54,708 nucleotides of DNA from a virus. Numbering within the stretch: the first letter of the stretch is position 1; each line of letters begins with the position of its first letter. The notes beneath the pieces are model-generated. The model saw only the letters and a program-made list of their open reading frames with translations. It had not been told where the DNA came from and did not search any database. The DNA is taken from positions 1-54,708 of IMG/VR virus record IMGVR_UViG_3300021477_000008; one strand, given 5' to 3'. The position numbers and the translations under genes were made by a program. Below, piece by piece: positions 1,012-37,215 of this stretch.

Positions 1012-1259
1012 CAGAAAGTGATAAATCCATGGCCGACCAAGCTCAAGAGAAAATTGATGACCAGAATCGCCCCAATGAGGATAAAAAATCCCACCCAAAC
1101 GGTCAGGACGATGGCGGGCACGCCCATCTTTTTGAAAATCCAATCGCCGAGCCACCACACAATTGCGAGGCACACGGCGATAATCAGGATGAAGAAAACG
1201 CTGTGGATGAGGCCGGTCCCGCCTCCCATCGTCACGACTTCTGCTAAAAGAGCATTCAT
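1011..1259 (-). CDS. Two-helix membrane protein, holin candidate (82 aa)
   Basis: The protein has two strongly hydrophobic segments (about residues 18-40 and 47-71) joined by a short loop with two lysines (IFKKMG). This size and topology match class II holins, which permeabilise the inner membrane at lysis, but no specific family is recognised. It is coupled by TGATG to the outer-membrane-barrel gene downstream, which suits a joint envelope function. It could equally be an unrelated small membrane protein. Confidence 0.5.
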   Translation of the reverse strand: MNALLAEVVTMGGGTGLIHSVFFILIIAVCLAIVWWLGDWIFKKMGVPAIVLTVWVGFFILIGAILVINFLLSLVGHGFITF

Positions 1260-3223: not shown

Positions 3224-3573
3224 TATTTGTTGGTCGCCTGAACCGCAAGCGGTTGATTCGGCCAGTAAATATACCATGCCCTGCACATTGTCGTGATGTC
3301 CGTGAACGTTGTGCCGTTCGTGAACACGCCCACAATCGAATAATTGTCCCACAGATTAGATGACCGCATCACGAGCACGTACGGATAATTCGACGGGACA
3401 CTGACGCTCACGGTCACGCGATTCGTGTACAGAACGACAAGAGGTGGATTGGTCTGCACCGGAACAGCCGTTGGCAGCGTTGGCCGATTCGTAAGGCCAG
3501 CAGGCGGCGCGGGCGGTTGCGCGCAGCACCACACGGCGAAGAACGCAGCCAAGATGGTCACGGAAGCCTTCAT
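3223..3573 (-). CDS. Secreted small beta-rich protein (116 aa)
   Basis: The N-terminus MKASVTILAAFFAVWCCAQP is a Sec signal peptide with a likely type I cleavage after CCA; the Cys pair does not fit a lipobox well. The mature part is Pro-rich and then Val/Thr/Asn-rich with strand-like alternation, as in fibronectin-like folds. The start overlaps the beta-helix gene stop as ATGA. It may be an accessory to the secreted tailspike-like proteins upstream. No family is recognised. Confidence 0.55.
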   Translation of the reverse strand: MKASVTILAAFFAVWCCAQPPAPPAGLTNRPTLPTAVPVQTNPPLVVLYTNRVTVSVSVPSNYPYVLVMRSSNLWDNYSIVGVFTNGTTFTDITTMCRAWYIYWPNQPLAVQATNK

Positions 3574-5321: not shown

Positions 5322-6781
5322 TGGTTCAAGGCGCGGTCTGTCCATATTCCAAGGTCAACCGTTGGAGAGCCTGTGCCGCCGATTGTGGCCGTCATCGTGA
5401 GAGACTTTGAAGCACCAAGAGTGAAATTAAAAGAATCAGGAACTGTTAAAGTCAAATCCAACGGGCCAGTCGCCGCCGTGCTCAACGCGCTGAAAGGGGT
5501 TATCGTGTAGGCTTGGCCGAAATCGTTCGTGCCGGCGATGGCGATGGTGAAAGTCCCCGCAGCGGCAGCCACCAATACCGAGGCATTGTAATGGACAGTG
5601 CCGCGAATTGTGTTGGCTGTGGAGTTTGTGAATAAAAGAGTACTCGCCACGTTTCCGGTGACGTTGGTGTTGACGTAGAGGCCAACGACTTGTTCTTCGC
5701 TATTCCCTACGCTGGTGACACCAAATTGATTAAATCCATTCGTGACCGTAATTGAGCCTGTGGTGACTGCTCCCGTTGCGCCTATAATCATCGCCGCTCC
5801 GCCGTAATTTCCTGCGCCGCTTGATGACATAGACACTCCACCCAGCCCCATTCCACCAGTAAAGTCCGTTTTAAACTGCATATTCTGGCTAAACCCCCCA
5901 GTGCCAGTGGTGATTGTGAAAAACTGAATGCTACCATTGATGAACTGAAACGCTTCGGCGTAGCCCGATTGCAGTCGAGTATATCCACCATTATAATATG
6001 CGTTTTCTGCAAGGAAACCGTTGTTGAACGCATACGGCTGAATTAAAAAAGACCCGAATTTTGCCGTGTATGACGATGTGTTATACGTCTCGCCCGTGAA
6101 AAGTCCGTTCTCGGTCAGCGAACTTCCAAACCCAACTGCACCGTTTACCAGTAGCGTGCTGGAATTGGAAATGGCCGCTGAAAAATTATCAGCGTTGGGT
6201 GAACCATTAAGAAACGGCACATTGCTGCTCAACCTCGCATCCGCCACCGTTCCGCTGCTCAACTGCGAGGCGTTGTTGGTGTTGACGTAGGCGCTCACCG
6301 CAACCGTTGCATTGCCGCCGCTCGGAGTGACTGTGATTCCGGTTCCGGCGAGGATGTTGCTTGCCGCACCGAGCGCATTCAATTGCGTCTGAATGGCGCT
6401 CGTGACGCCGTGAACATAGGAAAGCTCAGTGGAAGTTGTGACACTCGATGCCAATGCCTGATTCGCGTTGGCAACAAGCGCGGTGGACGGGGTGAGCGTC
6501 GTATTCGTGATAGCATCAGCGACCACGGTGATGACGACTCCATTAGACAGGTATATCAGAGTGTTATTGGTCAACAGCCAACCCGAGCCAGTTGAGTTGT
6601 TGGTGAGCGAGAATCCACCCGGCCCAGAGCCAGTGCCGCTCAAAGCGCCGGAAAATGTTCCGGTCGTGCCGATGATAGGGATTGCCGTGCCGTCCGTGTT
6701 GGTCGTGTAACGATTAGGCCGAATCGGTTGGGCAAATGCTCCAAAAGATACGAGACAACAAATCAAAATCAGCGTTTTCAT
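5318..6781 (-). CDS. Secreted tail-fibre-like protein (487 aa)
   Basis: The ATG at 6781 gives the signal peptide MKTLILICCLVSFGAFAQP. The body is Ser/Thr/Gly/Asn-rich and low-complexity, with fibre-like motifs such as LAGTGITVTPSGGNATVAV, also present in the two neighbouring genes, and a YVNTNNASQLSSGTVADARL segment typical of phage fibre shafts. This composition fits a trimeric fibre or adhesin. It is coupled to the beta-helix gene by ATGA and lies 2 bp after its upstream neighbour. The signal peptide is odd for a virion fibre. Confidence 0.6.
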   Translation of the reverse strand: MKTLILICCLVSFGAFAQPIRPNRYTTNTDGTAIPIIGTTGTFSGALSGTGSGPGGFSLTNNSTGSGWLLTNNTLIYLSNGVVITVVADAITNTTLTPSTALVANANQALASSVTTSTELSYVHGVTSAIQTQLNALGAASNILAGTGITVTPSGGNATVAVSAYVNTNNASQLSSGTVADARLSSNVPFLNGSPNADNFSAAISNSSTLLVNGAVGFGSSLTENGLFTGETYNTSSYTAKFGSFLIQPYAFNNGFLAENAYYNGGYTRLQSGYAEAFQFINGSIQFFTITTGTGGFSQNMQFKTDFTGGMGLGGVSMSSSGAGNYGGAAMIIGATGAVTTGSITVTNGFNQFGVTSVGNSEEQVVGLYVNTNVTGNVASTLLFTNSTANTIRGTVHYNASVLVAAAAGTFTIAIAGTNDFGQAYTITPFSALSTAATGPLDLTLTVPDSFNFTLGASKSLTMTATIGGTGSPTVDLGIWTDRALNQ

Positions 6782-6783
6782 AA

Positions 6784-7143
6784 TTAACTCCCGGCGACTT
6801 CGTACCATCCTGTGTTCCCGTTTCCGCTCGCTTTCACCCAAAAATTGACAGCGTTCGGGTTGGTAACATCTGCGTAAGGCGTGCCCGGAGAGGCCGTCAC
6901 GACACCTTGAGGGCTTCCAGTGCCATACAGTCCACCGCCGCTCGCGTTGACGGTGACAGTGCCAGTCCCGCCAGAAGGTGAAACGGTTATGTTAGTGCCC
7001 GCCACAATTTGAGAAACGCCGCCTCCGCCGCCGCCGCCATTGGACGCCGCGTAGAGCAACGCCATTTTCAAGTCCCGCGTGGACATGGCATCGTACCCGG
7101 CCTGAACAGCCGCCGTCATCAAGGTTTGTGCGGATTGTGGCAT
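6784..7143 (-). CDS. Short adaptor-domain protein with fibre module (119 aa)
   Basis: Residues 3-36 form the motif shared with the next two upstream genes (AQTLMTAAVQAGYDAM...LKMALLYAASN). A Gly run follows, then the IVAGTNITVSPSGGTGTVTV module and a C-terminal segment ending in NTGWYEVAG, similar to the tail-tip peptides of many phage fibres. The gene directly abuts the stop of the 181-residue paralogue. The likely role is a minor appendage or adhesin attached through the common N-terminal motif. Confidence 0.6.
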   Translation of the reverse strand: MPQSAQTLMTAAVQAGYDAMSTRDLKMALLYAASNGGGGGGGVSQIVAGTNITVSPSGGTGTVTVNASGGGLYGTGSPQGVVTASPGTPYADVTNPNAVNFWVKASGNGNTGWYEVAGS

Positions 7144-7927: not shown

Positions 7928-8362
7928 TTACACTCCTAGCAGGGAGAGACTATAACGCAGGAAAAAGTAAAACAGTCGCAATGTTTGCTCTGGCGTCTCG
8001 CGCATCGTCCCGCATTCCTTGATGATGGTGTTCACGTCCGTCGTGAGCGCGTTGTCGAGTCCGTACGCGGTGTTCCACAGAATCGCGGCGTCCATCTTGG
8101 CGAAAATCCAGCCCGGCTGCATCCCGGTGAAGGAAAATCCACCCGTGAACGTGGTTGCGTCAATCCGCAACTGCTTGTGGTTCGTGCGATAATCCGTCCC
8201 GCCTTTGCTGTTCAACTCGTGAATCAGGCAGATGACAGCAAACGCCACGGTTTGCAAATTGTCTAGATTTTGGAGCGCGGCGATGTTCGCCTTGAGATTT
8301 GCCGCATCCGTTATCTTGACCGGGCTTGATAACGCCGAATATGGAATGAGTGTTTGCGACAT
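7928..8362 (-). CDS. Hypothetical virion-cluster protein (144 aa)
   Basis: The protein starts MSQTLIPYSALSSPVKITDA and is mostly helical by composition, with a hydrophobic stretch (about residues 37-49) too short and mixed to be a clear membrane anchor. It lies between the acidic protein gene and the adaptor-motif family in the leftward capsid/tail operon. A head-completion or connector role is possible from position only. Confidence 0.6.
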   Translation of the reverse strand: MSQTLIPYSALSSPVKITDAANLKANIAALQNLDNLQTVAFAVICLIHELNSKGGTDYRTNHKQLRIDATTFTGGFSFTGMQPGWIFAKMDAAILWNTAYGLDNALTTDVNTIIKECGTMRETPEQTLRLFYFFLRYSLSLLGV

Positions 8363-8370
8363 ATAATTAG

Positions 8371-8676
8371 TTAATCTGCGCCTTCACTATCGTCTTTTCT
8401 GGGCGACAATTCCTCGCGGGCCATTGAATCCCAGTCGCTCATGTCGCCGCCTTCCGGCATCTCAAAATATCCCGTCGTGCCATTGTCACCCATGTCTTCC
8501 GTGACGCAAAACGTCAGCTTGTCGCCCTTCTTTGGCTTTGAACCGGGCGGCGTGACATCGGGCGGCAACGTGACCACATTTTTGTCCGACAAATCCTGCT
8601 CGGGCTGCTCCATTTCCGGCGCAGTCGCGGTTGCCCCCGCATCCCCGGATTCCGGCATGTCTTGGTCGTCAGCCAT
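8371..8676 (-). CDS. Acidic Pro/Gly-rich protein next to capsid (101 aa)
   Basis: The protein is strongly acidic (MADDQDMPESGDAGATATAP at the start, many Asp/Glu throughout) with a Lys-rich centre (KPKKGDKL), and it is probably largely disordered. It is the first gene after the likely major capsid gene. Small acidic proteins in this position are often capsid decoration or assembly factors. No family is recognised. Confidence 0.55.
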   Translation of the reverse strand: MADDQDMPESGDAGATATAPEMEQPEQDLSDKNVVTLPPDVTPPGSKPKKGDKLTFCVTEDMGDNGTTGYFEMPEGGDMSDWDSMAREELSPRKDDSEGAD

Positions 8677-8727: not shown

Positions 8728-10230
8728 TTAATCCTCAGGCGGTAGCGACCAAGCCGGAGGATTATATTCTCCGCACATCTGCGCGTACGCCAGCACGCTC
8801 TGGTAATCGCCAGCGGCGGGCGCATTCGGCGCTGTGTTCGTGCGAGGCACGCGCAAGAACGGTTGAGCTTCGCGCATGGCGAGAATGACGCGCTCGGTTT
8901 CAGGATAAATCGTCTGAATGCCGAGGTCATATTCGCCGAGCCAATAGCCCATGTTTTTCTTGTCGTTGTTGTAATTGCACGACACGCCCGTATTCGGGTC
9001 AACGGCGGTGAAGAAATCCGGGGATTTCCACGACCACTTGCCCATGAACGACCGCGCCAAGCCGAACTTCATATCCGGGTTGACGCTGGTGATGTCGCCG
9101 ACGTAAATCGTCCGGGCTTCGCGATTGTAAACGTGGAACATGGCAATCGGCGCGTTCTTCCAGTCTGTCGAATAGACGGGCTTGATGCCGAATGTCGCGG
9201 GCACGTTTTGATACGCTTGGACTTGCTCAATCCAGATTGCGCCAGGCAACGAATTGCCGTTGAAATCCACGCCGTCGAGGTCGGCGCGGAAACGGAATCG
9301 CAACTGCTCCTTTTCCTCCTTGAACAGCCAGTCGCCGCAGCCCGACGTGACGCCGAAGCTGTAGAATGCGCCGCCTTTGGAGAAGTCAGCCGCAGAATAC
9401 ATCTGGGTCAAGGCCGGGTTGGCGTTCATCAAAGACCGGCGCGTGGTCGCGTCAACCGTGATGGAGAACTTGCCGCTGACGAGCCATTCCTTGTCGTGAT
9501 ACCCTTGAGCCGCCAAGTCCTCCTGCATGTTGGCCAGATATTCCATCGTCAACTTGCTGAGATTGGTGGCCAGCAACGCCGTGGTCGTGATGCCGATGGC
9601 TGACAGTTCCAAGTTGGCGTTCAGATTCACCATCAGCGTGTTTTGAGAGCCGACTTTGGATTGTCCTCGCGACACCGCGAACATGTTCGGCGTAATGTCA
9701 ATGGCCACGGGATTGTTGTTGGAATCCTGCACGCCGCCGAGGAACAGGCCCGCCGCCTGAGCGATTGTGCCCGCCTTTTGCAAAACGAGCGTGCGAAGAA
9801 ACCCGGAACAAATGTACTCGGGCAATTCCTGATAACCCGCCGCAATCTGGGCGAGCTTTTGGATGCCCTCCTCGATGGTGTTCAACTGGTCAATGCAAAA
9901 CACCGGGGTCTGGTAATCCACTCGATACCGCTCGAATTTGATTTGGTCAACGCCGTGGGCGATGTAATTACGCTGCGTGGCGCACGGTGTCGAGAGGCAC
10001 GGGTCAGCCGTGTATTGCGGCCAGAGATTCGGGTCGTTGGGCCGGGCGACGTACGTGCGCTCGTGGAAAAGCTGCGTGCCCATGAAGGACGGCCACGTTT
10101 CCGTCTTGTACATGCCGGTGTAGATGTACGTGATGGGCTTGCGGTCTTTCGCAATCTTTTTTACCCAATCGTAAGGCCTTGTACCTAAGAGACTGTTGAA
10201 AGCTTGGCATTGGCTGGAATTGAGCGGCAC
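8728..10230 (-). CDS. Probable major capsid protein (500 aa)
   Basis: This is a 500-residue soluble protein with mixed alpha/beta composition, no signal peptide and no enzyme motif. It begins (GTG)PLNSSQCQAFNSLLGTRPYD. Size, position at the head of the leftward structural operon and the absence of a better candidate favour the HK97-fold major capsid protein. The GTG start at 10230 is preceded by AAGGAAAGGATTAATC, a strong ribosome binding site. It contains several cysteines (for example CIDQL, CSGFL, TSGCGDWL). The assignment is by context and general resemblance; a tail-hub protein is the main alternative. Confidence 0.6.
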   Translation of the reverse strand: MPLNSSQCQAFNSLLGTRPYDWVKKIAKDRKPITYIYTGMYKTETWPSFMGTQLFHERTYVARPNDPNLWPQYTADPCLSTPCATQRNYIAHGVDQIKFERYRVDYQTPVFCIDQLNTIEEGIQKLAQIAAGYQELPEYICSGFLRTLVLQKAGTIAQAAGLFLGGVQDSNNNPVAIDITPNMFAVSRGQSKVGSQNTLMVNLNANLELSAIGITTTALLATNLSKLTMEYLANMQEDLAAQGYHDKEWLVSGKFSITVDATTRRSLMNANPALTQMYSAADFSKGGAFYSFGVTSGCGDWLFKEEKEQLRFRFRADLDGVDFNGNSLPGAIWIEQVQAYQNVPATFGIKPVYSTDWKNAPIAMFHVYNREARTIYVGDITSVNPDMKFGLARSFMGKWSWKSPDFFTAVDPNTGVSCNYNNDKKNMGYWLGEYDLGIQTIYPETERVILAMREAQPFLRVPRTNTAPNAPAAGDYQSVLAYAQMCGEYNPPAWSLPPED

Positions 10231-10500: not shown

Positions 10501-10689
10501 ATGGCGTTCAGCGATGACCTGAGAAAGTGGCGCGGCAAGTTGCTTCAAAAAGAAGCGGCGGATGTTTTGAAAGTGCCACTGGACACCTACCGCGCATGGG
10601 AACACGGCCAGAGCGAGCCGTCAGAAGCCCCGAACAAGGCCGAGATTCTGAGGCGGATGACAGAGAATATTTCCCGTGCAACAAAATGA
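10501..10689 (+). CDS. Small XRE-like helix-turn-helix regulator (62 aa)
   Basis: The sequence LLQKEAADVLKVPLDTYRAWEHG (about residues 14-36) matches the helix-turn-helix of XRE/Cro-type proteins: acidic-Ala-Ala helix, short turn, then the recognition helix with T-YRAWE. At 62 residues it is almost only the DNA-binding domain, as in Cro or small excisionase-like proteins. The ATG at 10501 was preferred over an upstream in-frame GTG-type extension. It is the first gene of the rightward operon, behind two dyads it may bind, and its stop overlaps the next start as ATGA. Confidence 0.6.
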   Translation: MAFSDDLRKWRGKLLQKEAADVLKVPLDTYRAWEHGQSEPSEAPNKAEILRRMTENISRATK

Positions 10690-10874
10690 ACACCTGCAAA
10701 ACATGCAGATGGTGGAATGCCGACACTATTCCTGATACCGACCACAGAGTATGCAAACATCCGAAGATGGGTTGTGAATGGAAAGAAAAGGACACGCTCG
10801 CAAGTATTTGGGACGACATCCGAATTTTCACCGGCCCCGACTTCGGGTGCATCCATTACGAGGAAAAGAAATGA
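10686..10874 (+). CDS. Small Cys-rich putative zinc protein (62 aa)
   Basis: The protein starts MNTCKTCRWWNAD, with a CxxC pair followed by CKHPKMGC and a final C near residue 57, and it is rich in Trp and His. This spacing resembles small zinc-ribbon or treble-clef phage proteins. It is coupled to both neighbours by ATGA overlaps. No function is known. Confidence 0.6.
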   Translation: MNTCKTCRWWNADTIPDTDHRVCKHPKMGCEWKEKDTLASIWDDIRIFTGPDFGCIHYEEKK

Positions 10875-11188
10875 GGCTTAAATCCAAAATGGGTCGTCCT
10901 AGACTCGAAGCGAAAAACAAGCACACCTGTTATTTTGGGGTGTTTCTAAAACCGTCCGAAGCCCTAAATCTAAGAGCGGCTATCAAGCACTCAGGATTAA
11001 GAGAGTCGCAATATATTCGCAAATGTCTGGTCGATGCTGGACTTGGATTGTCGCTCGAATGGCTTATTAAACGAGACCCAACATCCAGAGCTGAGGATGC
11101 GGTTTGTTTTGGCGTGGACAAATGGATAAAACCGCCGTGGATACCGCCTTTGAGAGCGGGCACGTGGGTTAAACACATACGCAAATGA
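10871..11188 (+). CDS. Possible ribbon-helix-helix DNA-binding protein (105 aa)
   Basis: The N-terminal MRLKSKMGRPRLEAKNK is basic with an AT-hook-like GRPR. It is followed by a strand (CYFGVFL) and two helices (KPSEALNLRAAIKHSG, RESQYIRKCLVDAG), the order of CopG/Arc-type domains. The C-terminal half has no recognisable motif. It is coupled by ATGA to the upstream gene and precedes the glycan cassette, so it may regulate that cassette. Confidence 0.5.
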   Translation: MRLKSKMGRPRLEAKNKHTCYFGVFLKPSEALNLRAAIKHSGLRESQYIRKCLVDAGLGLSLEWLIKRDPTSRAEDAVCFGVDKWIKPPWIPPLRAGTWVKHIRK

Positions 11189-11210
11189 CTTGCATTCATC
11201 ACGAACCAAA

Positions 11211-13526
11211 ATGACCAAGCTCCACATCTGTCTCGGTCGCAACGGAGATATTCTGAACATCCTTTCGTTTCTCTGGCACGACGCGCAAACCGGAGAAAAG
11301 CCGCGCCTCATGGTCGCCGCCGAATGCTCTCCGCTCATGGAAGGCGTGAGTTACGTGGACACCGTGATTTACAACGGGCCGCACTACGAGATTCTGAAAG
11401 CCATTGAGCAGGCGAAAGGCATGGCCGATGAAGTGATTGTGTGCCAGACCAAAGGCCCAAAGGAGGCGATGCCGGAACTGGCCAAGATGCACAAGGGCAA
11501 ACGACCGGCCAGCAACTTTTGCAAGGAATCATGGCAGATGGCGGGGCGATTGCCGGAGTGGGGCAATCTTTACCCGCTGATATTCGACAAACGCGACAAG
11601 GAACGCGAGGCGCGGCTCGTTGACAAATACGGCTTCAAGAAAAAAGGCAGGCCGACAATTCTGCTGGCGATGAACAGCGTTTCCAGTCCGTTCCCGTATC
11701 CTGATTTGCTGAAATTGGTTGTCGAGACGGCGGGAGCGCGTTGTCAGGCCAGAGTCGTTGAAATCAAAAACGACGCCGAACGCATTCAAGACGTGATTGC
11801 GCTGTATGAGCAGAATGTTGTGTGCCTCGTGGCGATTGACTCCGCGCTGTTGCATCTGGCGTGGGCAGTCCCAAAGATGCCGGTGATTGCGCTGGCGCAG
11901 GACACGCCGACATATTGGCACGGGAGCGCGTGGAAACCCAACATGACATTTTATTGTCGGTATCACGATTTTCCGTCGAGAGCGGGTGCGATGGTGGAAA
12001 AGATTCGGCAACTGCGTGCGGGTGAAATCCTCGCGGACACAGCGATGCTCCAATGTTGGAGCGAATACGAGGCCAAACGCACGGAGAAACCGATTGGTGA
12101 AGGACTGGCATTCACGACCGGCATCTGTTCTCGAGACAGCGTGACGTTGAAACTGTCGGAAGCCCGCGTGCCGTATCTCAAGGATTGCCTGAACATGGCG
12201 ATTCAAAAAGCGCATTCGGACGAAACGCTGATTGTACTGCATCGGCCAGACACGATGATTGACGTGAAGGAATTCACGGTAAAACCCCCGTTTTACTGCT
12301 ATCGGATGTCGCTCCCAAACAACGAAAGGAAAGCAATAGCGGAGTTTAGTCCGATAGCAGACTTGTTTTGCGCCAGTCGCAGATGGTGGAAAAGCATCAT
12401 GCCGGAAATACCCGACGTGTTGCTCACCCGAGATTTCGTTTGGAGTCAATGCTTGTGGGCCGCGTTCAAGAAATGCGAGGCGCGTGACGCCACTGGCATC
12501 TCGTTCAGGGTCAAGAAAGAACCAATACCGGGCACATTGGGCGCGGCGGGAAGATACAACCAGGCGCAATGCGCGGCGTATCTCAAGAGCAACCGCATTT
12601 ATTCGCGTTACCCGAAAGTGACGGAGCAATGCGCGTCGGTAGTCATCAAAGGATTGCCGCCATTCGCCTATAACCCGTCGCTTCTGCGATGGAAGGACGG
12701 GTTTTTAATGACGTACCGTTATCACTTCGATGATACGCGCAACACCAAGCTCGGGATTGCGGAACTCGATTCGGGATTTGCCGTCTTGCGCCACGGCGCG
12801 ATGCCGCTGACATCGGAAGCGCAGAGCTACGAGGATGCGCGACTGTTCTCGCTTCACGGCGAAGTCTGGTTTTCGTGGACGGAAGCAAAGGACGTGAACA
12901 CAGCAAGCCCGACTTGCGTTGTCAAATACGCCCAACTTGAGGAAGTGCCGTTATACAAGAAGCAGCCCGAGCGATGGGTCATCAGCCGCGTGTACCAGAT
13001 AGCAAGCGGTGCGAACGACTGGACGACGATGCAAAAGAACTGGGTGTTCTTCGAGTCCGACGAAAACCTGTTTTGCATCTATCGTTCGATACCGCTTTTG
13101 GTGGTCTGGCAGGTTCAAGGCGAGAAGGTGATTGCCGAGCATAACCAGCCGGGGGTGCAATGGCCGTATGGCGACATTCGCGGCGGCGGCGTCATCGCTA
13201 TAGACGGAAAGCTCTTGCGCCTGTTTCACTCACCGTTGGACAATGACCCGTCCACGAACCGGCAACGGCGTTATTTCATTGGGGCGGCGGTGATGGAATA
13301 CAAACCGCCGTTTACAACATTGGGCGTGACGAAACACCCGATTATTTACGGAAGCGAGATTGACAGCCTGAGTCCGGGAGAACGGAAATCCTGCAAACAC
13401 TTCAAGCCGTCCGTGGCGATTCCCTACGGGTTGATTGACGACGGGGAGAGCGTGCTGGCGGCGATTGGCGTCAACGATTCGTCGTGTGTCGTGTCGAGAA
13501 TTCCAAAGAGCAAATTACCTCTATGA
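11211..13526 (+). CDS. GT9-like glycosyltransferase fused to GH130-like beta-propeller (771 aa)
   Basis: Residues 1-270 resemble GT9 (heptosyltransferase-type, GT-B fold) enzymes: LHICLGRNGDILNIL at the N-terminus and DSALLHLAWAVPKMPVIAL at 210-228, the nucleotide-sugar-binding end of the family. Residues about 305-470 form an unassigned middle domain. Residues about 475-771 resemble five-bladed beta-propellers of the GH130/GH43 type: YNPSLL (487-492), YEDARLF (540-546) and a later KNWVFFE...IYRS motif seen in propeller proteins linked to sugar transfer. The protein may make or trim a surface glycan. The ATG at 11211 is preferred over an upstream in-frame start, and the stop is coupled by ATGA to the aminotransferase gene. 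Confidence 0.6.
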   Translation: MTKLHICLGRNGDILNILSFLWHDAQTGEKPRLMVAAECSPLMEGVSYVDTVIYNGPHYEILKAIEQAKGMADEVIVCQTKGPKEAMPELAKMHKGKRPASNFCKESWQMAGRLPEWGNLYPLIFDKRDKEREARLVDKYGFKKKGRPTILLAMNSVSSPFPYPDLLKLVVETAGARCQARVVEIKNDAERIQDVIALYEQNVVCLVAIDSALLHLAWAVPKMPVIALAQDTPTYWHGSAWKPNMTFYCRYHDFPSRAGAMVEKIRQLRAGEILADTAMLQCWSEYEAKRTEKPIGEGLAFTTGICSRDSVTLKLSEARVPYLKDCLNMAIQKAHSDETLIVLHRPDTMIDVKEFTVKPPFYCYRMSLPNNERKAIAEFSPIADLFCASRRWWKSIMPEIPDVLLTRDFVWSQCLWAAFKKCEARDATGISFRVKKEPIPGTLGAAGRYNQAQCAAYLKSNRIYSRYPKVTEQCASVVIKGLPPFAYNPSLLRWKDGFLMTYRYHFDDTRNTKLGIAELDSGFAVLRHGAMPLTSEAQSYEDARLFSLHGEVWFSWTEAKDVNTASPTCVVKYAQLEEVPLYKKQPERWVISRVYQIASGANDWTTMQKNWVFFESDENLFCIYRSIPLLVVWQVQGEKVIAEHNQPGVQWPYGDIRGGGVIAIDGKLLRLFHSPLDNDPSTNRQRRYFIGAAVMEYKPPFTTLGVTKHPIIYGSEIDSLSPGERKSCKHFKPSVAIPYGLIDDGESVLAAIGVNDSSCVVSRIPKSKLPL

Positions 13527-14170
13527 GCGCACAAGGCGTCCACAAAATAACCGCCGAGTTCGAGGCCGAGCTTTGCCGGTACTTGAATGCTCCCTTTGCG
13601 GTCGCCGTGGATAATGCGAGCAACGCACTATTTTTGTGCCTGATGCGAGAAATCGCAACCGGCAGGCTGTCGAGAGGCGATGAGATTTGGATTCCACGAC
13701 ACACGTATGTATCCGTGCCATGCGAGATAATTCTTGCGGGCTTAAAAGTGCGCTGGCTTAACAAGCCGTCCCCCATGTTGACGGGAGAATACAAATTGAA
13801 GCCTTCCCGAGTGTGGGATTCGGCATTACGATTCACGTCGAACATGTGGCGATTGGGGCAACTTCAATGCGTTTCCTTCACCGGCCCTAATAAACACCTA
13901 AAACTTGGGAAGGGCGGAGCAATCCTTTGCGATTCTTCGGCTGACGCTGAATGGTTCAAACGCGCTCGCAACTCGGGACGCGGTGAATGCAGTTATCACG
14001 ATGACACGTTCACCATGATTGGCCGCAACTGCTACATGCACCCGTCCGTGGCCGCGCTCGGGTTGCAACTCATGGGCCAATTTTATCATCTCGACGGGAG
14101 CAAAAAGCAGATGCCGGACATCAGCTTGCCGTATCCTGACCTTAGCAAATTTCCAATCTACACCCAATGA
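13523..14170 (+). CDS. Short DegT/DnrJ/EryC1-type sugar aminotransferase (215 aa)
   Basis: Family features are a fold-type I N-terminus (FEAELCRYLNAPFAVAVDNASNAL), WIPRHTYVS near residue 57, an Asp (D99) in the cofactor-ring position, and GPNKHLKLGKGGAIL at 121-135 with K124 as the likely PLP lysine. These enzymes transfer an amino group to a keto sugar nucleotide. The usual length is about 360-400 residues, so this one lacks the C-terminal small domain and parts of the core. It may be a minimal enzyme or one that needs a partner. ATGA overlaps on both sides place it in the glycan operon. Confidence 0.65.
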   Translation: MSAQGVHKITAEFEAELCRYLNAPFAVAVDNASNALFLCLMREIATGRLSRGDEIWIPRHTYVSVPCEIILAGLKVRWLNKPSPMLTGEYKLKPSRVWDSALRFTSNMWRLGQLQCVSFTGPNKHLKLGKGGAILCDSSADAEWFKRARNSGRGECSYHDDTFTMIGRNCYMHPSVAALGLQLMGQFYHLDGSKKQMPDISLPYPDLSKFPIYTQ

Positions 14171-14787
14171 GCCAACTCGTCATCATAGGCAGCGGCGGTC
14201 ACGCGGGCGTCGTGATTGACGCCATCAATTATTGGAATTATTGGAAAGATGGCCGCTACACGCCTCGCCTTGTAATCGTGGACGATACTTTAGAGCCGGG
14301 ACAAATGCGGCACGGACGCATTGTTTCTCGCACCGGAAACATCACTTACCCTGACCTTTGTGAAGTGTTCATCGCAATTGGGGACAATGCGGTACGTGAG
14401 AGAATATCAGCAGAATGGTCATTCGTTTACACGAACGTAATTCATCCCAAATCGGATGTGAGGACTCCCATCCTCACTCGCGGCAACTACATCGGAGCGA
14501 ACGCAGTCATAAATCCCGGTTGTCGCGTCGGCAATTTCTGCATTATCAACACCGGCGCGATTCTTGAACATGACAGCAGCATCGGGGATTTTTCATCGCT
14601 CGCACCCGGCGTCGTCACCGGCGGTCGGGTAAAGATTGGAGACAGGACGGCCATCGGTCTTGGCGCGATGATTCGGGACGGCGTGACCATTGGAAATAAT
14701 TGCAGCATTGGCATGGGGGCGGTTGTGTTGGATGACATCCCGGACAATTCGACAGCGTGGGGGAATCCGGCAAGGATACAGAAATGA
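14167..14787 (+). CDS. PglD/NeuD-like sugar O/N-acyltransferase (206 aa)
   Basis: The N-terminal Rossmann-like part carries GSGGHAG (8-14), typical of PglD/NeuD proteins. The C-terminal part is a left-handed beta-helix of hexapeptide repeats (VINPGCRVGNFCIINTGAIL and on) with the expected catalytic His (H135 in LEHDSSIG), ending in WGNPARI. The family acetylates amino sugars on nucleotide carriers or sialic acids. Next to an aminotransferase it suggests an N-acetylated amino sugar such as a bacillosamine- or perosamine-type product. Length is normal for the family. Confidence 0.8.
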   Translation: MSQLVIIGSGGHAGVVIDAINYWNYWKDGRYTPRLVIVDDTLEPGQMRHGRIVSRTGNITYPDLCEVFIAIGDNAVRERISAEWSFVYTNVIHPKSDVRTPILTRGNYIGANAVINPGCRVGNFCIINTGAILEHDSSIGDFSSLAPGVVTGGRVKIGDRTAIGLGAMIRDGVTIGNNCSIGMGAVVLDDIPDNSTAWGNPARIQK

Positions 14788-15404
14788 AAATCGGCAACTA
14801 CAACATCCGCGCTTTCTGCGTCACCGTTCAGGAAATGCCTGAGCGCTGGGAGTTTATTTCAAAACACTTCAAAGATGTTGGATTCGAGTGCGAACCGTTT
14901 AACGGAATTAGCGCAGAAGCCTCAGGACTTCGCACGACTCACCCGTATGAGCGAGACGCCCCCGGCAGCGGTTGGAACATCGGAAAACGCCCCGTGGCGT
15001 GCTGGTTGTCGTTCTACATGCTTTGGAGCGCCCTCAATTTGCTGGACGACGAATATTTCCTCACAGTTGAATGGGATTGCAAAATGCCGACTTACTGGAA
15101 ACAGCGCACCGAAGACGCGCTGCGAGACGTTCCAAGAGATTTCGACATGCTTCTGCTCGGGTCATGTTGCTGCAAAGACAGGCCCACGACTCACGTTGCC
15201 GGAAATGTCTATGAAGTGAAGTATCCCCAGTGTGGACATGCGACGATTATCGCCAAGAAAGCGTTGCCGACGATTCTGGCGACGCAGCGCAAAGTGTACG
15301 CCCCGCTCGATATTTCCTTGATGCTCCACACGATGCCGTTGCTCAAGGTTTACACCGTGCTCCCGCGCATCGCAGACCAATTTGACACTCAACTCCCTCA
15401 ATGA
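14784..15404 (+). CDS. GT25-like glycosyltransferase (206 aa)
   Basis: The protein begins MKIGNYNIRAFCVTVQEMPERWEF and resembles family 25 LPS glycosyltransferases, where such a segment reads the donor. VEWDCKMP (near residue 93) sits where the family usually has EDD, so the acidic metal-binding motif is altered but keeps an Asp. KYPQCGHATIIAKKAL matches the later conserved region. The ATG at 14784 overlaps the preceding stop (ATGA). It probably adds a sugar to a surface or virion glycan. Confidence 0.6.
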   Translation: MKIGNYNIRAFCVTVQEMPERWEFISKHFKDVGFECEPFNGISAEASGLRTTHPYERDAPGSGWNIGKRPVACWLSFYMLWSALNLLDDEYFLTVEWDCKMPTYWKQRTEDALRDVPRDFDMLLLGSCCCKDRPTTHVAGNVYEVKYPQCGHATIIAKKALPTILATQRKVYAPLDISLMLHTMPLLKVYTVLPRIADQFDTQLPQ

Positions 15405-15419
15405 TATAACCACAATCAC

Positions 15420-15704
15420 ATGAATACTTCTGATTCCATTAACGAATTGTTTGAAGGCGGGATTCTCGGAATGAACATCGGCAGACCGCCAGCCGGTCAA
15501 GGCAGCGCAAAATATTTCATCAACGCCGGGCAGGGCGTCCCGACCGGTGACGTTGGAAATCACATGCAGATTCAGCATCAAGTCGTCGGCGAAAGCATCC
15601 CGGAATGCCTTGAGAAGCTGAGAAAGCAGGTCGAACAAGCCGCCGAACTCAAAACCGAACCCACGGGCATCATACGGATGCCGAACCCGAACGGAAGGGG
15701 ATGA
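15420..15704 (+). CDS. Hypothetical protein (94 aa)
   Basis: A Gly-rich N-terminal half (GGILGMNIGRPPAGQGSAKYF) is followed by one helix (SIPECLEKLRKQVEQAAEL). The gene lies 15 bp after the glycosyltransferase and 1 bp before the next gene, at the start of the scaffold-side segment. It may be a small capsid-assembly component by position. No family is recognised. Confidence 0.6.
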   Translation: MNTSDSINELFEGGILGMNIGRPPAGQGSAKYFINAGQGVPTGDVGNHMQIQHQVVGESIPECLEKLRKQVEQAAELKTEPTGIIRMPNPNGRG

Positions 15705-15705
15705 C

Positions 15706-15993
15706 ATGACCTCTGCGAAAAAACTCGTTTGGGCAAACAAAGAATTGCGGGAATGGTGGGTCGGGGTCGCCACTCATCCTTACTTCAATCAAGTGTGGGT
15801 GCTGGCCAAAGCCGATTTGTTCGACCAGGACATCCCGAACGAACAATTCAAGGGTGCGAAACTCATCATGGACACGTTGCAGGAATTCGCCGCGCCCGAA
15901 GGCGCATCAGCCGAAGTGCCGTCGCCGGGAATTGTCCATGTCCTGCCCAATCCGCGAGTAAAGAAAGAGAAAACCGTCGCAGCAACGGACTGA
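15706..15993 (+). CDS. Hypothetical protein (95 aa)
   Basis: The N-terminal helical region (KLVWANKELREWWVGVATHP) and DQDIPNEQFKGAKLIMDTL give a compact helical protein with a basic, Pro-rich tail (LPNPRVKKEK). It sits 3 bp before the scaffold-like gene. The function is unknown; it is probably virion-related by context. Confidence 0.6.
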   Translation: MTSAKKLVWANKELREWWVGVATHPYFNQVWVLAKADLFDQDIPNEQFKGAKLIMDTLQEFAAPEGASAEVPSPGIVHVLPNPRVKKEKTVAATD

Positions 15994-15996
15994 TTT

Positions 15997-17295
15997 ATGC
16001 CAGAAACCACACTCCAAGTTCCCGCATCGGCAACGCCTATGGGCGGCACGGTAACGACCGAAACCGCGTCACCGGCGCAAAATGCGCCCGGCTCATCCAC
16101 GACCGATACATCCACGAACAAAGACGGCGGCATTGACGTTGGCGCATGGGACAAGCTCGTGGAACGCGAGGGCGGCAAACCCGATGCCGAGCCGGAAGCC
16201 AAGGCTGATAAACCGGCCTCAAAGGCGGCAGACAAACCCAAACCCGCCGAGGCGAAGAAACCGGAGTCCAAGAAACCAGAGGAAAAACCCAAGCTGGAGG
16301 ATAAGGCCGAAACAAAACCAGAGGATAAGCCAGTCGAAAAAAAGGTGGGCGCACCCGGCGAACAAAACTGGCAGGCGGGCCCGAAACAACTCCGCGAGCG
16401 CAAGGAGCAGCTTGAGAAGGAGCTTGGCGAGTCCACCCAGACCATAAACGACCTCAAGACCAAAATTGCGGACTGGGAGAAACGCGGCAAGGATACCGAG
16501 GGCTTGCTGGCTCAACTCGACGCCGAGCGCAAGGAAAAGGAAGCGATTCTTGCCGAGAACCGGATGCTCAAGCAGGAATCATCGCCCGAATTCAAGGAGA
16601 AGTACGACAAGCCGTTTGAAAGGCAGGTTGCCTTTGCCCAAAACAACCTCGTCGGCCTGACCAAGCAGGACGGTTCGCCGTTCACTTGGGAAAAGGATTT
16701 TGTGAGCATGTACTCGATGCCGCCCGCCGCCGCGCACGCCGCCGCCGAGGAAATGCTTGGCCCGAAACAAGCCCAAATCGTGATGAACGAGATTCGGGAC
16801 TTGAAGAAGCTGGACTTTGAGCGCAGCGCCGCCCTGCGTGCCGAGAAGGAACAATACGCGGAAAAGACAAAAGCTGACCAAGCCAAATCCGCCGAGGTCA
16901 AGGCCCGAGAACAGCAGCAGCAGGCCACGCAACGCAAGGCGCTGGAAGAAGCGTGGACAAAGGTGAATCAGGACTTGGAAGCCAGCGAAGATTACAAGAC
17001 AGACCCGGGCGACAAGGAAATTATCGCGGCCCGTAACAAGGATTTGGCCATATTCGACAAACCCTCGAAGAACATCGAGGAAAAAATCGTCAAGGACGCC
17101 CATATCCGTCAGCGCGTCGGCTCGTGGGTCGTACAACGGATTCTCATTGGCCGATTACAGCAACAGCTTGCCGAACTCAAGGAACAGCTTGAGGACAAAG
17201 AACCGTTGCCGCCCAATGGCGGTCGTCATGCCGGGGGCGACCGCGTGAAACCGGAAGATGAACCGTTTGAGACGGCGGCGCTCAAAATCCGATAA
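15997..17295 (+). CDS. Scaffolding-like coiled-coil protein (432 aa)
   Basis: The N-terminal 120 residues are Ala/Pro/Lys/Glu-rich and disordered. A long helical region follows with heptad patterns (about residues 125-190 and 265-330, for example LRERKEQLEKELGES). A short folded-looking centre carries FTWEKDFVSMYSMPP, and the tail is charged. High charge, high helix content and low aromatic content are typical of phage scaffolding proteins, which template procapsid assembly. It is separated from the putative capsid gene by the glycan cassette, which is unusual. Confidence 0.6.
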   Translation: MPETTLQVPASATPMGGTVTTETASPAQNAPGSSTTDTSTNKDGGIDVGAWDKLVEREGGKPDAEPEAKADKPASKAADKPKPAEAKKPESKKPEEKPKLEDKAETKPEDKPVEKKVGAPGEQNWQAGPKQLRERKEQLEKELGESTQTINDLKTKIADWEKRGKDTEGLLAQLDAERKEKEAILAENRMLKQESSPEFKEKYDKPFERQVAFAQNNLVGLTKQDGSPFTWEKDFVSMYSMPPAAAHAAAEEMLGPKQAQIVMNEIRDLKKLDFERSAALRAEKEQYAEKTKADQAKSAEVKAREQQQQATQRKALEEAWTKVNQDLEASEDYKTDPGDKEIIAARNKDLAIFDKPSKNIEEKIVKDAHIRQRVGSWVVQRILIGRLQQQLAELKEQLEDKEPLPPNGGRHAGGDRVKPEDEPFETAALKIR

Positions 17296-17750
17296 TGCTC
17301 AAGACGCTCCCCGACATCTCGTTTCCGATAACGAAATCGTCCATCAATCCTTTGATGGATTGCATTGTTCAACTCAACACCCAGGACGCCGGATTGCCGG
17401 AAGGGATGCAACGCGCGTTGGGCATCTATTTTCACACATACGATTTGTTCGTGAAAAGCAAGGGCCGCATCAATTATCTTGGACGCGACGGCAGGGAACG
17501 ATTGAAACAGGACGCCTCGATGTTTGTTCAATCCCAAATCGTGACGCGCAATGGCGATTTAAGCGCCGCGCATCTGGCGATTGATTACTCCGACACCATC
17601 GTTCGATGCCGCGAAATGGGCATCACTCCGCTGACCGGGGATGTGGCGGCGTTAATTGCCGAATGCACAGACATGCAGGGCATGAGCGTGGAGATGGAAA
17701 AGCGGGTCGGCTTGCTGATGGACATGCTCGGAAAGAAGTCGGTGGTTTAA
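17295..17750 (+). CDS. Hypothetical protein after scaffold (151 aa)
   Basis: The start overlaps the scaffold-like stop as TAATG. The sequence is helical and globular (for example MDCIVQLNTQDAGLPEGMQRAL), with no membrane or signal segment. The stop TAA shares the palindrome TTAA with the convergent stop of the 1275-residue gene. A head-completion role is possible from position only. Confidence 0.6.
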   Translation: MLKTLPDISFPITKSSINPLMDCIVQLNTQDAGLPEGMQRALGIYFHTYDLFVKSKGRINYLGRDGRERLKQDASMFVQSQIVTRNGDLSAAHLAIDYSDTIVRCREMGITPLTGDVAALIAECTDMQGMSVEMEKRVGLLMDMLGKKSVV

Positions 17751-20700
17751 CGCCGACGCTGAATCTTGGCCTGCATTATCGGTTTCCACAGTGCCTTTTC
17801 CTCCGGCGTTCCCGCGTCGTACACTTCTTGGGCGACATCCAGAGGCAGGCGGGAAAACGAGACAACGCGCGGGTCTTTCTTGGACGCGGCAATCAGGTCG
17901 TTAGCCTGTCTCCGGGTGAGCGAATGGTCGTTGACCATTTCTTCAATCTCTTTTCTGGCAGCATTCGGGTCGGTTTTTAACTTGTTCTTCTCTTGATAAC
18001 GCAAGTCGGACTCCGCGGCTTCCTCTTTGGTTTTTGTGCCGCCGAAATGTTGCTTGTTGTATTCCGAAATCATCTGCATCGCTTTTGTGCGGGTGAGTTC
18101 CGCGGCGGCTGGCATGATGCCGGTAAAACTCTCGTACTTCGCCGACAGCCCCTTATCCATCCGATGCGAGTACTGTTGAAATGAAAACGGTTTGAATTGT
18201 GAAGCAACAAAGCGCAGTTCATCGCCAACCTGCTTCACAAGCGGGTCGTTTTTGTTTGCAATTTCAGTTCCGTAAAAATCCCTGTTCTTGGCCATGTTGC
18301 CGAGCATTTCGAGTATCGGCCCGGATTTGTTGACAACCATTTGTTCAAGTCTGGACAGCACCCCGGACGTTCCGAAATTGTTTCCCGCTTTCACAACAGG
18401 CAGAATGTCCTTCACGTAGGTTGGAAGAATCACGCGCTCTGTCGAACCGTCCGGCAGTGTCCTGCCGGTTTTCGGCATGAAATAATCCTTTAATTCATCC
18501 GGGCCTTTGCCGGTGTGGAGATATTGGTACATCGCTCCCAACGCCCCGACAACGATAGGAAGGGAAATCGCGTAGGCCATGCGATGCGTCACAGCTGGGT
18601 CGCCGGATTTGAGACGCGCGGCGAGTGTGGCCGTGTCCTTGATTGCGCCGCCAAGTTCCCGGACAGTCCCGAGATTCCATCCAAGAGAACGAGTCGCCAG
18701 CATCGCCGCGTCCTTGAGCGTTTTGTTCCAAAACAAATTGTCGTAAACCATCTGGCCCATGCGATTGTCCACCGAATCCCATATCTTGCCGAACACCTTG
18801 CGCTGCTGCTCAAGGTTCATCGTTGGATTCTTTTCCATTTCCATGCGGGCCATGTCCGCGAAGATGCCGAGCTTCATGCGCGGGACAACAACTTCCATCA
18901 CGGGCTTGCTTGCGGCTTCAATCGCGGCGAATGGTGCGCGGAACGCCGCGCCGATGTGGTTGCCTTCGTGAAACGCTTTCCAGAACGATTCAATGGATGA
19001 ATTCTTGTAATATTTGTCCATCGTGACACGCCCCCCGCCCTTGATAAGAGCGTCAACGATTCTGGCATAGTCGCCGCCAACCGTTCCCGGTTTGGTGTAC
19101 TCGTTCAACACCTTGTTGCCGCGAATCAGGTTATCAACGGCTGGCCCGTGACCGGGGGCGGTGGACGCAATACCAGCCGATTTAGCGGCACCGCTAACAT
19201 CACCACGAGACGCCTGTTCGATTGCCAACGCGAGCTTTGAGACGGCAGAATCAATCGCCGTGAATCTCAAATGATAGGCGGACAAGCCCAGTTGAAACTG
19301 ATTAAGCACATTGCTGGCCGCGAGAACACCCCGAAACAAGGCGAACTTGCGGAGTCCGGGAGACAGGTAATTATTGATGATTCTGGCCGCGTCATCCGGG
19401 GCGTAATACGAGCCGCGTTTGGCCAACGACCCTTGCGCCGTCGTGCCCTCGTACACGTCGGCAATGCGGTCGTCAATCTTGGTGTAACCATCCGGCGTCG
19501 GCTCAGTGGCCCGAACAAACTTTGCCAGCCCCGCGTCCTTCATTTCGTTCAGGACTTTGTGGGCCATCACGTACCTGTCCATTTCGTGAAGTTTAAGGAG
19601 CGTTAATTCAACGGGATTTGTGGACACAGGTTTAAGCCCTGCCGCGATGCCGTCCGCCGTTGTCGGAATGGTTCGCTTTTTGAGAAATGATTTCGGGCCT
19701 TCAAACGGGCGTTTTCCAAAGATTCTTGCGAACAGATTGGAGGCGGCGTCGGGTTGTTCCCAAAGATGCGGGAAATAATTCTCAATCAGCTTTTCCAGTT
19801 TGCCAGTGCCGAGAGCGCGAACATCGGCCACGCGCTTGTTAAAGGCGTCACGCAATACCCGGCTGAGTTTATCCAAGTCCGGCGTGGCCTGCGCCCTATC
19901 GTTCTCCATGTTGTCAATGAACCTGAGATTGAAGGCTTGCGGCGATTTTTCAAACATCTTGCGAGCCTCATCCAGCTTGGCGCGTTCCTGAATGTCTTTT
20001 GCCTCCAACTCTCCGGCGCGATGGCGAAGGATTCCAGCGGTGGTTAGCGACTCTGCGCTTTTGTTTGGGGCGCGAAAAGCGGAGTTAAGTTCGGATGCGG
20101 ATTCGGCAACGGCACTCGCGGCGGCTTTGATGGCGGGCAATGCGTCTTTTTCGGCGAACTCCTTTAGTCCGGGCACAATCGCCATTTGCAGTTGAGACGA
20201 CGGATGAACGCCAGCATCGGACGGTGTCACGGTAGACGGCTTCGGTTGAACCTCTGTAATTTGAACATCTCCTTTTTGAGGAACGAACTTGCCTCCCTTG
20301 TCTTTCGTGCCAGATTCCACCTTGTCCACTTCCACGCCTTTAAATGGATTGAACTTCTTGAAGTCCGCAATGGATTGAACGGCTGATTTACCGTCTTTGG
20401 TCGTGACACGAATAAAAGTAGAGCCTTCCGGGGCTTTGACTGAAACCTTGTCAGAGGACGCTAATGCTTCCATGCCGGTTTTATCAACAGCAGGCGCAAC
20501 AGGCGGCGTCTCGGCGGGTTTGTTTACCGGTTGGTCAACTATGGGTTTGGGTTCTTCCGGCAAATCGCTCGAATGCAGTTTACCCGGTTCTGTCGCTGTC
20601 GGCAGTCCGGTTTCTGTCGCCGCCGTCTGGCGCGTGATGAACTTGCCTTGCGCGTCCACAAACCCTTCCTGCGCCCCGGACGTATCCGGCTGGCCGTTGG

Positions 20701-34152: not shown

Positions 34153-34214
34153 TGCCGGAAGGATGGACAGACGGGGACGACGAATCGTTACCTGACGAAA
34201 TGGATGATGAATGA
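34152..34214 (+). CDS. Acidic microprotein (20 aa)
   Basis: The sequence MPEGWTDGDDESLPDEMDDE lies between a TAATG overlap upstream and an ATGA overlap downstream. This exact chaining suggests it is translated, at least to carry ribosomes to the next gene. It may have no independent function. Confidence 0.4.
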   Translation: MPEGWTDGDDESLPDEMDDE

Positions 34215-36330: not shown

Positions 36331-36503
36331 CGGTTCACTTTCTCTTTGGCTTTCCGTTTCCTTCGTTCATACTTCTCCGAGCACCCGCCGCAGACAGCGG
36401 TGCGCCTCACAAATTGTTCCGTCACAAACTCGCCCGGCTCATACTGCCGAACGATGGGCATTCCGCAGTTCACGCAGAAACAGTTGATGGTTTGGAGGGT
36501 CAT
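36327..36503 (-). CDS. Small zinc-ribbon protein (58 aa)
   Basis: Read from ATG 36503, the protein begins MTLQTINCFCVNCGMPIVRQ and contains CxCxxC and CGGC, with a Lys/Arg-rich end, the layout of a zinc ribbon that contacts DNA or RNA. It overlaps the methyltransferase stop and the DUF1643 start by ATGA on both sides, so the three genes are translated as one unit. Confidence 0.7.
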   Translation of the reverse strand: MTLQTINCFCVNCGMPIVRQYEPGEFVTEQFVRRTAVCGGCSEKYERRKRKAKEKVNR

Positions 36504-37162: not shown

Positions 37163-37203
37163 CTCACATCGCGCGGTTGAAGGTCATGGGAGATTCTGAT
37201 TGC

Positions 37204-37215
37204 ATCGTAGTCACG
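37204..37215 (+). repeat. 12-bp repeat copy 1 (ATCGTAGTCACG)
   Basis: Exact match to the copy at 37352-37363 and to the reverse complement at 37296-37307. Confidence 0.75.

Follow-up and report, generated by a model that had tools for sequence, protein, structure and literature searches.

A syntenic, exchangeable glycan island with a compact DegT-type aminotransferase between capsid-like and scaffold-like genes of tailed phages

Introduction

Glycosylation of phage virions is known from few cultured cases, and that of mycobacteriophages such as Che8 was reportedly described by Freeman in 2023. In these phages, sugars are attached to the capsid or the tail tube by the phages' own glycosyltransferases (GTs), according to the available text of PMC11256854 and PMC12619734. 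A cluster of aminotransferase, acetyltransferase and GT genes is known for the virion fibres of mimivirus (PMC9614988), and the five-bladed fold of the GH130 and GT108 enzymes, which is relevant to one of the proteins below, is stated in PMC8950772.

Here, a four-gene cassette is described from the window, that is, the whole stretch of 54,708 nucleotides analysed (IMG/VR record IMGVR_UViG_3300021477_000008), which comes from a tailed phage as judged by a terminase match (phrog_2, 2e-8). An earlier note on this DNA had presented the cassette as the best candidate in the window for an undescribed system, a term that is too strong given virion glycosylation in mycobacteriophages (available text of PMC11256854) and the mimivirus fibre cluster (PMC9614988). 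The new elements are the modular island, located at a single locus, and the compact aminotransferase.

Organization of the locus

The genes P0001 (11211-13526) to P0004 are intact open reading frames on the plus strand, and a 4-base ATGA overlap is found at each of the three junctions between them (Table 1). They belong to an operon-like plus-strand chain (10501-17750) that also includes the scaffold-like gene and has gaps of at most 22 bp. Short ORFs resembling its first gene, recognized by reading, occupy the same position in relatives, and the NikA-like match (Pfam, 0.003, below cutoff) concerns a longer ORF (10778-11188). A scan for promoter and terminator consensus sequences returned hits no more numerous than in shuffled sequences.

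No gene of the locus is more conserved than the capsid-like one, with 56-69% identity across 11 proteins. Searches with it in PHROGs, PDB and INPHARED were without match, the scaffold-like gene had no informative match in PHROGs, and tblastn against INPHARED with P0001, the terminase, the capsid, the portal and a propeller from another locus (L021) found nothing. Both genes are thus named as probable capsid and scaffold genes from position, conservation and composition, which was counted against the virion as the target of the cassette.

Table 1. Features of the cassette and its surroundings (positions in the window)
Feature	Position	Strand	Basis
Probable major capsid gene, divergent from cassette	8728..10230	-	Position, conservation, composition
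XRE-type HTH gene, 62 aa, first of operon	10501..10689	+	Pfam HTH_3 9e-5
Small Cys-rich ORF, ATGA-linked to HTH gene	10686..10874	+	Sequence
Small ORF, ATGA-linked to Cys-rich ORF	10871..11188	+	Weak NikA-like match
P0001 residues 1-290, GT9-like (GT-B) glycosyltransferase domain	11211..12080	+	Pfam, Foldseek
P0001 residues 291-445, conserved domain, function unknown	12081..12545	+	Alignment A11, 10 phages
P0001 residues 446-771, five-bladed GH130/GT108-type propeller	12546..13526	+	Model, Foldseek, profile
P0002, compact DegT-type aminotransferase, 215 aa	13523..14170	+	Pfam, PDB profile, Foldseek, invariant residues
P0003, PglD/PerB-type 4-amino-sugar N-acyltransferase	14167..14787	+	Pfam, PDB profile, H135
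P0004, GT25-like glycosyltransferase	14784..15404	+	Pfam, PHROGs, PDB profile, invariant residues
Small conserved head-operon gene	15420..15704	+	Homologues in L004, L007, L014
Small conserved head-operon gene	15706..15993	+	Homologues in most relatives
Probable scaffold gene	15997..17295	+	Position, conservation among relatives, helical composition rich in Ala, Lys and Glu
Conserved gene, last of operon	17295..17750	+	Homologues in L007, L008, L015

Enzyme families of the cassette

The N-terminal domain of P0001 resembles GT9 enzymes below the Pfam cutoff (E 0.0012-0.0028, 17.5-18.6 bits versus a cutoff of 22), and its GT-B region matches a phage RfaF-like protein in Foldseek (1e-6). The domain that follows had no match in Pfam and PDB searches. 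Structures were predicted for P0001 and P0002, and the modelled propeller of P0001 (pLDDT 83) matches GH130 (Foldseek 8e-12, probability 1.00) and MPT-1 (Foldseek 1e-8), with a further profile match (6e-11) and invariant ED and KN pairs. As a single sequence P0001 had no match in the PDB, so family alignments were used, and a viral-contig scan with P0001 alone as query found no match either.

The P0002 protein matches the DegT family (Pfam, E=1.5e-16), its profile matches 51 PDB sequences, including perosamine synthase, and sugar aminotransferases rank first in Foldseek. It is nevertheless half-size, since full-length DegT enzymes have about 370 aa in two domains, and the C-terminal domain and some 44 internal residues are missing, a loss that was counted against the virion reading. 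Residues K124, D99 and N169 are invariant in nine aligned proteins; from the alignment and from what is known of the family, we take K124 to be the PLP lysine and D99 the ring-binding Asp. GKGG stands where the family has GEGG, and the model has low confidence at residues 151-184. In view of the missing parts, P0002 is called a compact DegT-like protein and counts as a member of the family by sequence, not by function.

For P0003, the match covers the whole length, with an N-terminal PglD_N domain and a left-handed beta-helix (Pfam Hexapep 4e-17, PglD_N 3e-11), and the best solved match is perosamine N-acetyltransferase PerB (4ea7, 5.8e-37 over 194 profile positions), VioB being matched at 3e-31. 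Its H135, the catalytic His, is invariant and corresponds to the position carrying Asn in the mutant entry 4eaa, while Ser144 replaces the second His of the family. P0004 lies just below the Pfam cutoff for GT25 (5.8e-5, 23.5 bits versus 24), is matched by a PHROGs glucosyltransferase family (9e-7) and, as a profile, by GT25 structures (4.5e-7 to 0.001), of which mimivirus R655 (4.5e-7) is the nearest solved relative; its acidic pair E96 and D98 is invariant.

None of the four proteins shows a membrane-type hydrophobic or transmembrane-like segment, the sole high-hydropathy stretch (1.9 at residue 203) falling within the GT-B region, and no flippase, bactoprenol/lipid-carrier GT or membrane GT family was matched among them. 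The cassette also has no 4,6-dehydratase, so a 4-keto sugar would need to be supplied by the host.

The earlier note had described four glycan genes joined by ATGA overlaps, an arrangement that the intact ORFs and all three junctions bear out. Its placement of the cassette between capsid and scaffold holds for position and for the operon shared with the scaffold-like gene, but the capsid-like gene lies on the opposite strand and both identities are only probable. As for the GT9/propeller fusion, the propeller stands on the model and Foldseek, whereas GT9 is below the Pfam cutoff and the fusion is peculiar to the window phage, the two parts being separate genes in nine relatives. The DegT-type aminotransferase keeps its family assignment and PLP lysine, but in a protein of only 215 aa without the C-terminal domain.

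Related phages and exchange of the island

The same gene order, which the earlier note had proposed to look for in other phages, was found in five uncultured ones (L002, L005, L006, L007 and L015), in L002 with the ATGA overlaps. In each of the 12 related phages, glycan genes or methyl-transfer genes occupy the capsid-scaffold interval, and 10 of these phages have a GT9 and propeller core followed by exchangeable genes; L009 and L010 are without the core, an observation counted against the virion reading. Phages with capsids 79-97% identical differ in island content. Divergence of the cassette genes is greatest at third codon positions, as under purifying selection, which together with the gene order kept in relatives argues that the cassette is not a product of chance. 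Close relatives have exchanged the island in part or as a whole, which suggests that the viruses alter the sugar coat of the particle or, less likely, that of the host.

Compact DegT proteins are widespread, with 264 viral-contig matches. Sets containing them are located near major capsid genes, confirmed as such, that belong to four other families (L021, L025, L026 and L088), and of 29 clusters examined at least 20 have a PglD-like gene no more than 3 kb away. The idea that compact DegT genes always stand beside capsid genes was dropped, many of the 80 inspected loci being otherwise arranged. In one group of loci, pairs of compact DegT and PglD-like genes sit among replication genes, and in the cultured Flavobacterium phage vB_FspM_immuto the glycan cluster (gp181-gp169) comes after the lysis genes, away from virion genes; both were counted against a virion target.

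Possible function and target

Synthesis of an N-acylated amino sugar, as proposed in the earlier note, has good support from families, profiles, conserved gene order and the frequent presence of a PglD-like gene near a compact DegT, and the enzymes are expected to make an unusual amino sugar and transfer it. That the island, with its constant core and variable cap, glycosylates the virion is given a probability of about one half. This reading is supported by the operon shared with the scaffold-like gene and by compact-DegT sets near capsid genes. Also counted in its favour were the enzyme families with their retained active-site residues, the glycan or methyl-transfer content of the interval in every relative, the island exchange, the lack of membrane-type hydrophobic segments and the precedents of mycobacteriophage capsids and tails and of mimivirus fibres. 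The virion decoration favoured before is upheld to that extent, the sets away from capsid genes and a possible host LPS target standing against it. The cassette and the scaffold-like gene would be co-expressed, probably late in infection because of this shared expression. The compact DegT would aminate a host-derived 4-keto-6-deoxy nucleotide sugar, which the PglD-type enzyme would then acylate, and the GT9-like, propeller and GT25-like enzymes may decorate a virion protein, presumably in this order, with a short glycan. The constant inner part would come from the GT9/propeller pair and the exchangeable cap from DegT-PglD-GT25, so that a swap of the cap or of the whole island could give close relatives different particle coats.

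As the main alternative, the cassette could alter LPS or another surface glycan of the host during infection, masking the receptor against competing phages or released progeny, and the islands would then differ because different receptors are masked or remade. LPS enzymes are found in both the GT9 and the GT25 family, a point also counted against the virion, perosamine-type enzymes are O-antigen enzymes, rapid island exchange fits competitor exclusion, and the immuto cluster is remote from virion genes; such a role is nevertheless rather unlikely given the single operon with the scaffold-like gene, the recurrence of compact-DegT sets near capsid genes and the lack of flippase, lipid-carrier GT and membrane GT in the cassette. 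Modification of phage DNA in the manner of T4, with an amino sugar on a modified base blocking host nucleases, would agree with the glucosyltransferase label of the P0004 family in PHROGs, with compact DegT genes among replication genes and with the fact that phage GTs do modify DNA (available text of PMC12619734). It was set aside as very improbable because the window ORFs searched yielded no base-modification gene, neither a hydroxymethylase nor TET/JBP nor any other; moreover, the cassette sits with the scaffold-like gene rather than with replication genes, and the window encodes an N6/N4 DNA methylase as a usual means of protection.

It is also conceivable that the compact DegT is no sugar aminotransferase but has another role, such as that of a PLP protein with a regulatory or binding function, and that the cassette transfers host sugars only. 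The missing residues and domain, the poorly modelled segment and the change from GEGG to GKGG point in this direction, but the invariant Lys, Asp and Asn positions, the sugar aminotransferases at the top of the Foldseek matches and the frequent PglD-like neighbour, as expected for an amino-sugar product, make it improbable.

Beyond this locus, it is possible, though doubtful, that tailed phages with unrelated capsids, of several families, have exchangeable glycan islands within their virion modules, each made up of an inner part that stays constant and a cap that can be swapped, that the coats vary between close relatives in an O-antigen-like way and that the half-size aminotransferase is a common tool. 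If true, amino-sugar coats would be a widespread and fast-changing phage trait, as indicated by the syntenic exchangeable island and the hundreds of contigs with compact DegT. Another question, posed by the compact DegT, is whether a sugar aminotransferase can be active without its C-terminal domain.

Comparison with known systems

Prophage Gtr serotype-conversion clusters comprise a flippase, a bactoprenol GT and a membrane GT, none of which had a counterpart matched in the cassette. The bacterial GDP-perosamine/N-acetylperosamine (PerA/PerB), PglE/PglD and VioA/VioB pathways include the same two steps as proposed for P0002 and P0003, but P0002 is compact, the cassette has no dehydratase and the genome is that of a phage. 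GH130 mannoside phosphorylases and GT108 mannosyltransferases share with P0001 the five-bladed propeller and the ED pair, at about 13% identity, and the P0001 propeller is fused to GT9-like and unknown domains.

The mimivirus fibre cluster (L136 aminotransferase, L142 acetyltransferase-GT; PMC9614988, PMC10117803) likewise joins a DegT-type enzyme, a PglD-like N-acetyltransferase and GTs, varies in content between clades, decorates the virion and has a proposed methyltransferase, and mimivirus also provides R655, the relative of P0004. It belongs, however, to a eukaryotic giant virus with a full-length L136 (352 aa) and its own dehydratase, and lies outside any capsid-scaffold operon, with no GH130-type propeller reported in the available text of these two papers. 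Che8-type glycosylation resembles the present case as that of a tailed phage with its own GTs, known there by experiment and here from genes, whereas the GTs of mycobacteriophage Maravista are found close to the genome's 3' end and no sugar-aminotransferase module is reported in the available text of PMC11256854 and PMC12619734. In the 160-kb myovirus immuto, whose cluster follows lysis rather than capsid genes, gp172 is a compact DegT (55% identity) adjoining the PglD-like gp171 among GTs and a methyltransferase, and this cultured phage, having the same enzyme pair, makes the question of the compact enzyme's activity testable.

Organization of the cassette

The window, 54,708 bases long, comes from IMG/VR as a virus record. 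The four genes proposed in the earlier note as a glycan cassette are chained on the plus strand, with ATGA at 3/3 junctions, and the chain proves longer than had been claimed, both upstream and downstream. A small XRE-type HTH gene and two further small genes are joined by ATGA overlaps, the last ending 22 bp upstream of the cassette; downstream come another two small genes, then the scaffold-like gene and a final gene, at gaps of 15, 1, 3 and -1 bp. The region 10501-17750 has the arrangement of a single operon. The cassette lies between the capsid-like and scaffold-like genes as described, but the capsid-like gene is on the opposite strand; both identities are putative, based on position, conservation and composition. 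A large protein encoded downstream of the scaffold operon and its counterpart in the related contig L002 gave no family match.

Coordinates of the cassette and of other features (L-numbers denote loci from the similarity scans)
Feature	Position	Strand	Match or length
Tail-fibre-like or surface-like proteins	3570-6841 and 385-1173	-	
Capsid-like gene	8728-10230	-	
XRE-type HTH gene	10501-10689	+	Pfam HTH_3, 9e-5
Cassette gene 1 (P0001)	11211-13526	+	
Cassette gene 2 (P0002)	13523-14170	+	
Cassette gene 3 (P0003)	14167-14787	+	
Cassette gene 4 (P0004)	14784-15404	+	
Large protein	17747-21574	-	1275 aa
Large protein, L002 counterpart	L002:12784-19749	-	2321 aa
ATP-grasp-like gene	34211-35518	+	
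N6/N4 DNA methylase gene and helicase gene	36500-38924		methylase, 1.8e-27
PAPS-reductase-domain gene and adjoining small gene	46919-48147	-	PAPS reductase, 9e-9

The cassette proteins

P0001 had been described as a GT9/propeller fusion, and the propeller part is well supported by model and profile, while the GT9 match is weak (Pfam 0.0028, below cutoff). In an AF2 model built from 20 aligned sequences (pLDDT 83), the C-terminal propeller best matches solved GH130 beta-1,2-mannan phosphorylases (8e-12); MPT-1, a GDP-mannose-dependent mannosyltransferase of Leishmania, ranks lower (1e-8). Profile matches point the same way (Lin0857, 6e-11; Uhgb_MS mannoside synthase, 7e-7). All 11 aligned propellers keep an ED pair and a KN pair, and the Asp of the ED pair is probably catalytic. 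At the N-terminus, the domain is similar to a phage RfaF-like protein, and the conserved middle domain (about residues 290-445) gave no Pfam or PDB match. GH130 and GT108 share one fold (PMC8950772).

P0002 is a DegT-superfamily protein (1.5e-16), as expected, yet at only 215 aa it is not a full-length aminotransferase: compared with full-length enzymes, some 65 residues between two matched blocks are reduced to about 21, and everything beyond about residue 250 of 374 is swapped for a tail of about 30 residues. All nine aligned proteins share K124, D99 and N169, and sugar aminotransferases are the top Foldseek matches of its weaker model (pLDDT 71, unreliable at 151-184). Over its whole length P0003 aligns with perosamine N-acetyltransferase (5.8e-37), in keeping with the proposed PglD-like acyltransferase, and also VioB (3e-31). 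Its H135 aligns with the position that is Asn in mutant entry 4eaa, and a second family His, retained in relatives, is replaced here by Ser144. P0004 is GT25-like, as predicted, its nearest solved relatives being mimivirus R655 (4.5e-7) and collagen galactosyltransferase (0.001); the scores on which GT9 and GT25 were assigned lie close to or under the curated cutoffs.

Variation of the island among related phages

Searching with acyltransferase, capsid, DegT and GT25 proteins as queries yielded 11 further phages with comparable capsid and scaffold regions, onto which window genes were mapped and in which ORFs between capsid and scaffold (the island) were read. GT9-like, unmatched and propeller parts occur in 10 phages including the window; the fusion is peculiar to the window, since GT9 and propeller are separate genes in the other nine. 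The DegT-PglD-GT25 order, sought elsewhere, was found in L002, L005, L006, L007 and L015, making six phages with the window, and L007 carries an additional Methyltransf_24 gene. Other islands hold GT25 and two methyltransferases (L004), Methyltransf_24 and GT2 genes (L003, L008), or methyltransferases with one GT2-like and one GT11-like gene (L014; the latter label partly by reading, PHROGs 'glycosyltransferase' 4e-5), and L009 and L010 have no GT9-to-propeller core and encode a large GT-like protein whose DUF6492 match is weak. The interval thus always carries glycan or methyl-transfer genes.

L003 and L008 are 97% identical in capsid, 84% in GT9, 78% in scaffold and 60% in propeller, and their last GT2 genes are non-homologous. 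L002 and L009 have unrelated islands with capsids 79% identical, and L015 differs from L003 (capsids 83% identical) in having DegT, PglD and GT25. The window, L003, L004, L008, L014 and L015 fall together in one supported clade of the capsid tree. As divergence in cassette genes is highest at third codon positions, and islands differ between close capsids, selection maintains the genes while islands exchange their content. Because the constant part adjoins the HTH gene and the variable part the scaffold-like gene, we infer a 'core and cap' organization.

Compact DegT proteins in other loci

Viral contigs hold 264 stretches coding for compact-DegT relatives, the best-scoring 80 of which form 29 clusters at 85% identity; a PglD-like gene lies within 3 kb in at least 20 of these 29, and no rate of location is claimed since the 80 are best-scoring matches, not a random sample. 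Bacterial genomes gave 13 loci, several apparently chromosomal (Bacteroidota). Sets with compact DegT also lie within a few kb of major capsid genes whose identity is confirmed and which represent four other families: crAss-type (L021, Pfam 1.8e-13), Mu gpT (L025, 3e-38), Phage_capsid_2 (L026, 2e-48) and a fusion of capsid and protease (L088, 1e-50 against annotated phage proteins). In L021:5574-13159, a propeller, a methyltransferase, two GT25-like genes, an acyltransferase and compact DegT immediately precede scaffold-like and capsid genes. By gene labels assigned by reading, sets seem to lie between head-tail and tail genes in L088 and L072, and immediately ahead of terminase genes in L062. 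In a 24-locus group the DegT/PglD pair sits among replication-type genes.

In eight loci (L068, L071, L080, L081, L096, L110, L114, L115) compact DegT forms the C-terminus of an ORF of 865-896 aa whose start looks like a GT-B plus FkbM-type methyltransferase region. Bacteroidota contigs L027, L032 and L036 (about 7970-8590) have a compact DegT on its own next to a divergent, conserved protein of about 660 aa, TPR/O-mannosyltransferase-type by appearance.

Other genes in the window

The conserved gene adjoining the portal-like gene looks, by reading, like one for an ATP-grasp ligase (no Pfam or PHROGs match), which could modify virion peptides; in L007, L015 and L017 its homologues likewise neighbour the portal and scaffold genes. 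Beside the PAPS-reductase-domain gene is a small gene that weakly matches ATP sulfurylase (0.007), and the methylase gene is close to an opposite-strand ResIII/DEAD helicase gene. The tail-fibre-like or surface-like proteins seem, by reading, to start with signal peptides, which are unusual on phage virion proteins.

Proposed function and target

The enzyme set suggests that an acylated 4-amino-6-deoxy sugar, which would be made from a 4-keto sugar of the host, is transferred along with other sugars. Modification of phage DNA by the glycosyltransferases is unlikely, as no base-modification gene was found among the window ORFs searched. The main rival is modification of host LPS, shutting out competing phages, which the family names and the fast island exchange also fit. 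The virion is nevertheless the favoured putative target, as the earlier note had it, because the operon is shared with the scaffold-like gene, compact-DegT sets recur near capsid genes, the cassette is without membrane proteins, and precedents exist. The replication-gene and lysis-gene settings run against virion decoration: the cultured Flavobacterium phage vB_FspM_immuto likewise has a DegT/PglD pair, but there it follows lysis genes. The precedents are glycosylation of mycobacteriophage virions (cited in PMC11256854, PMC12619734) and of mimivirus fibres (PMC9614988, PMC10117803).
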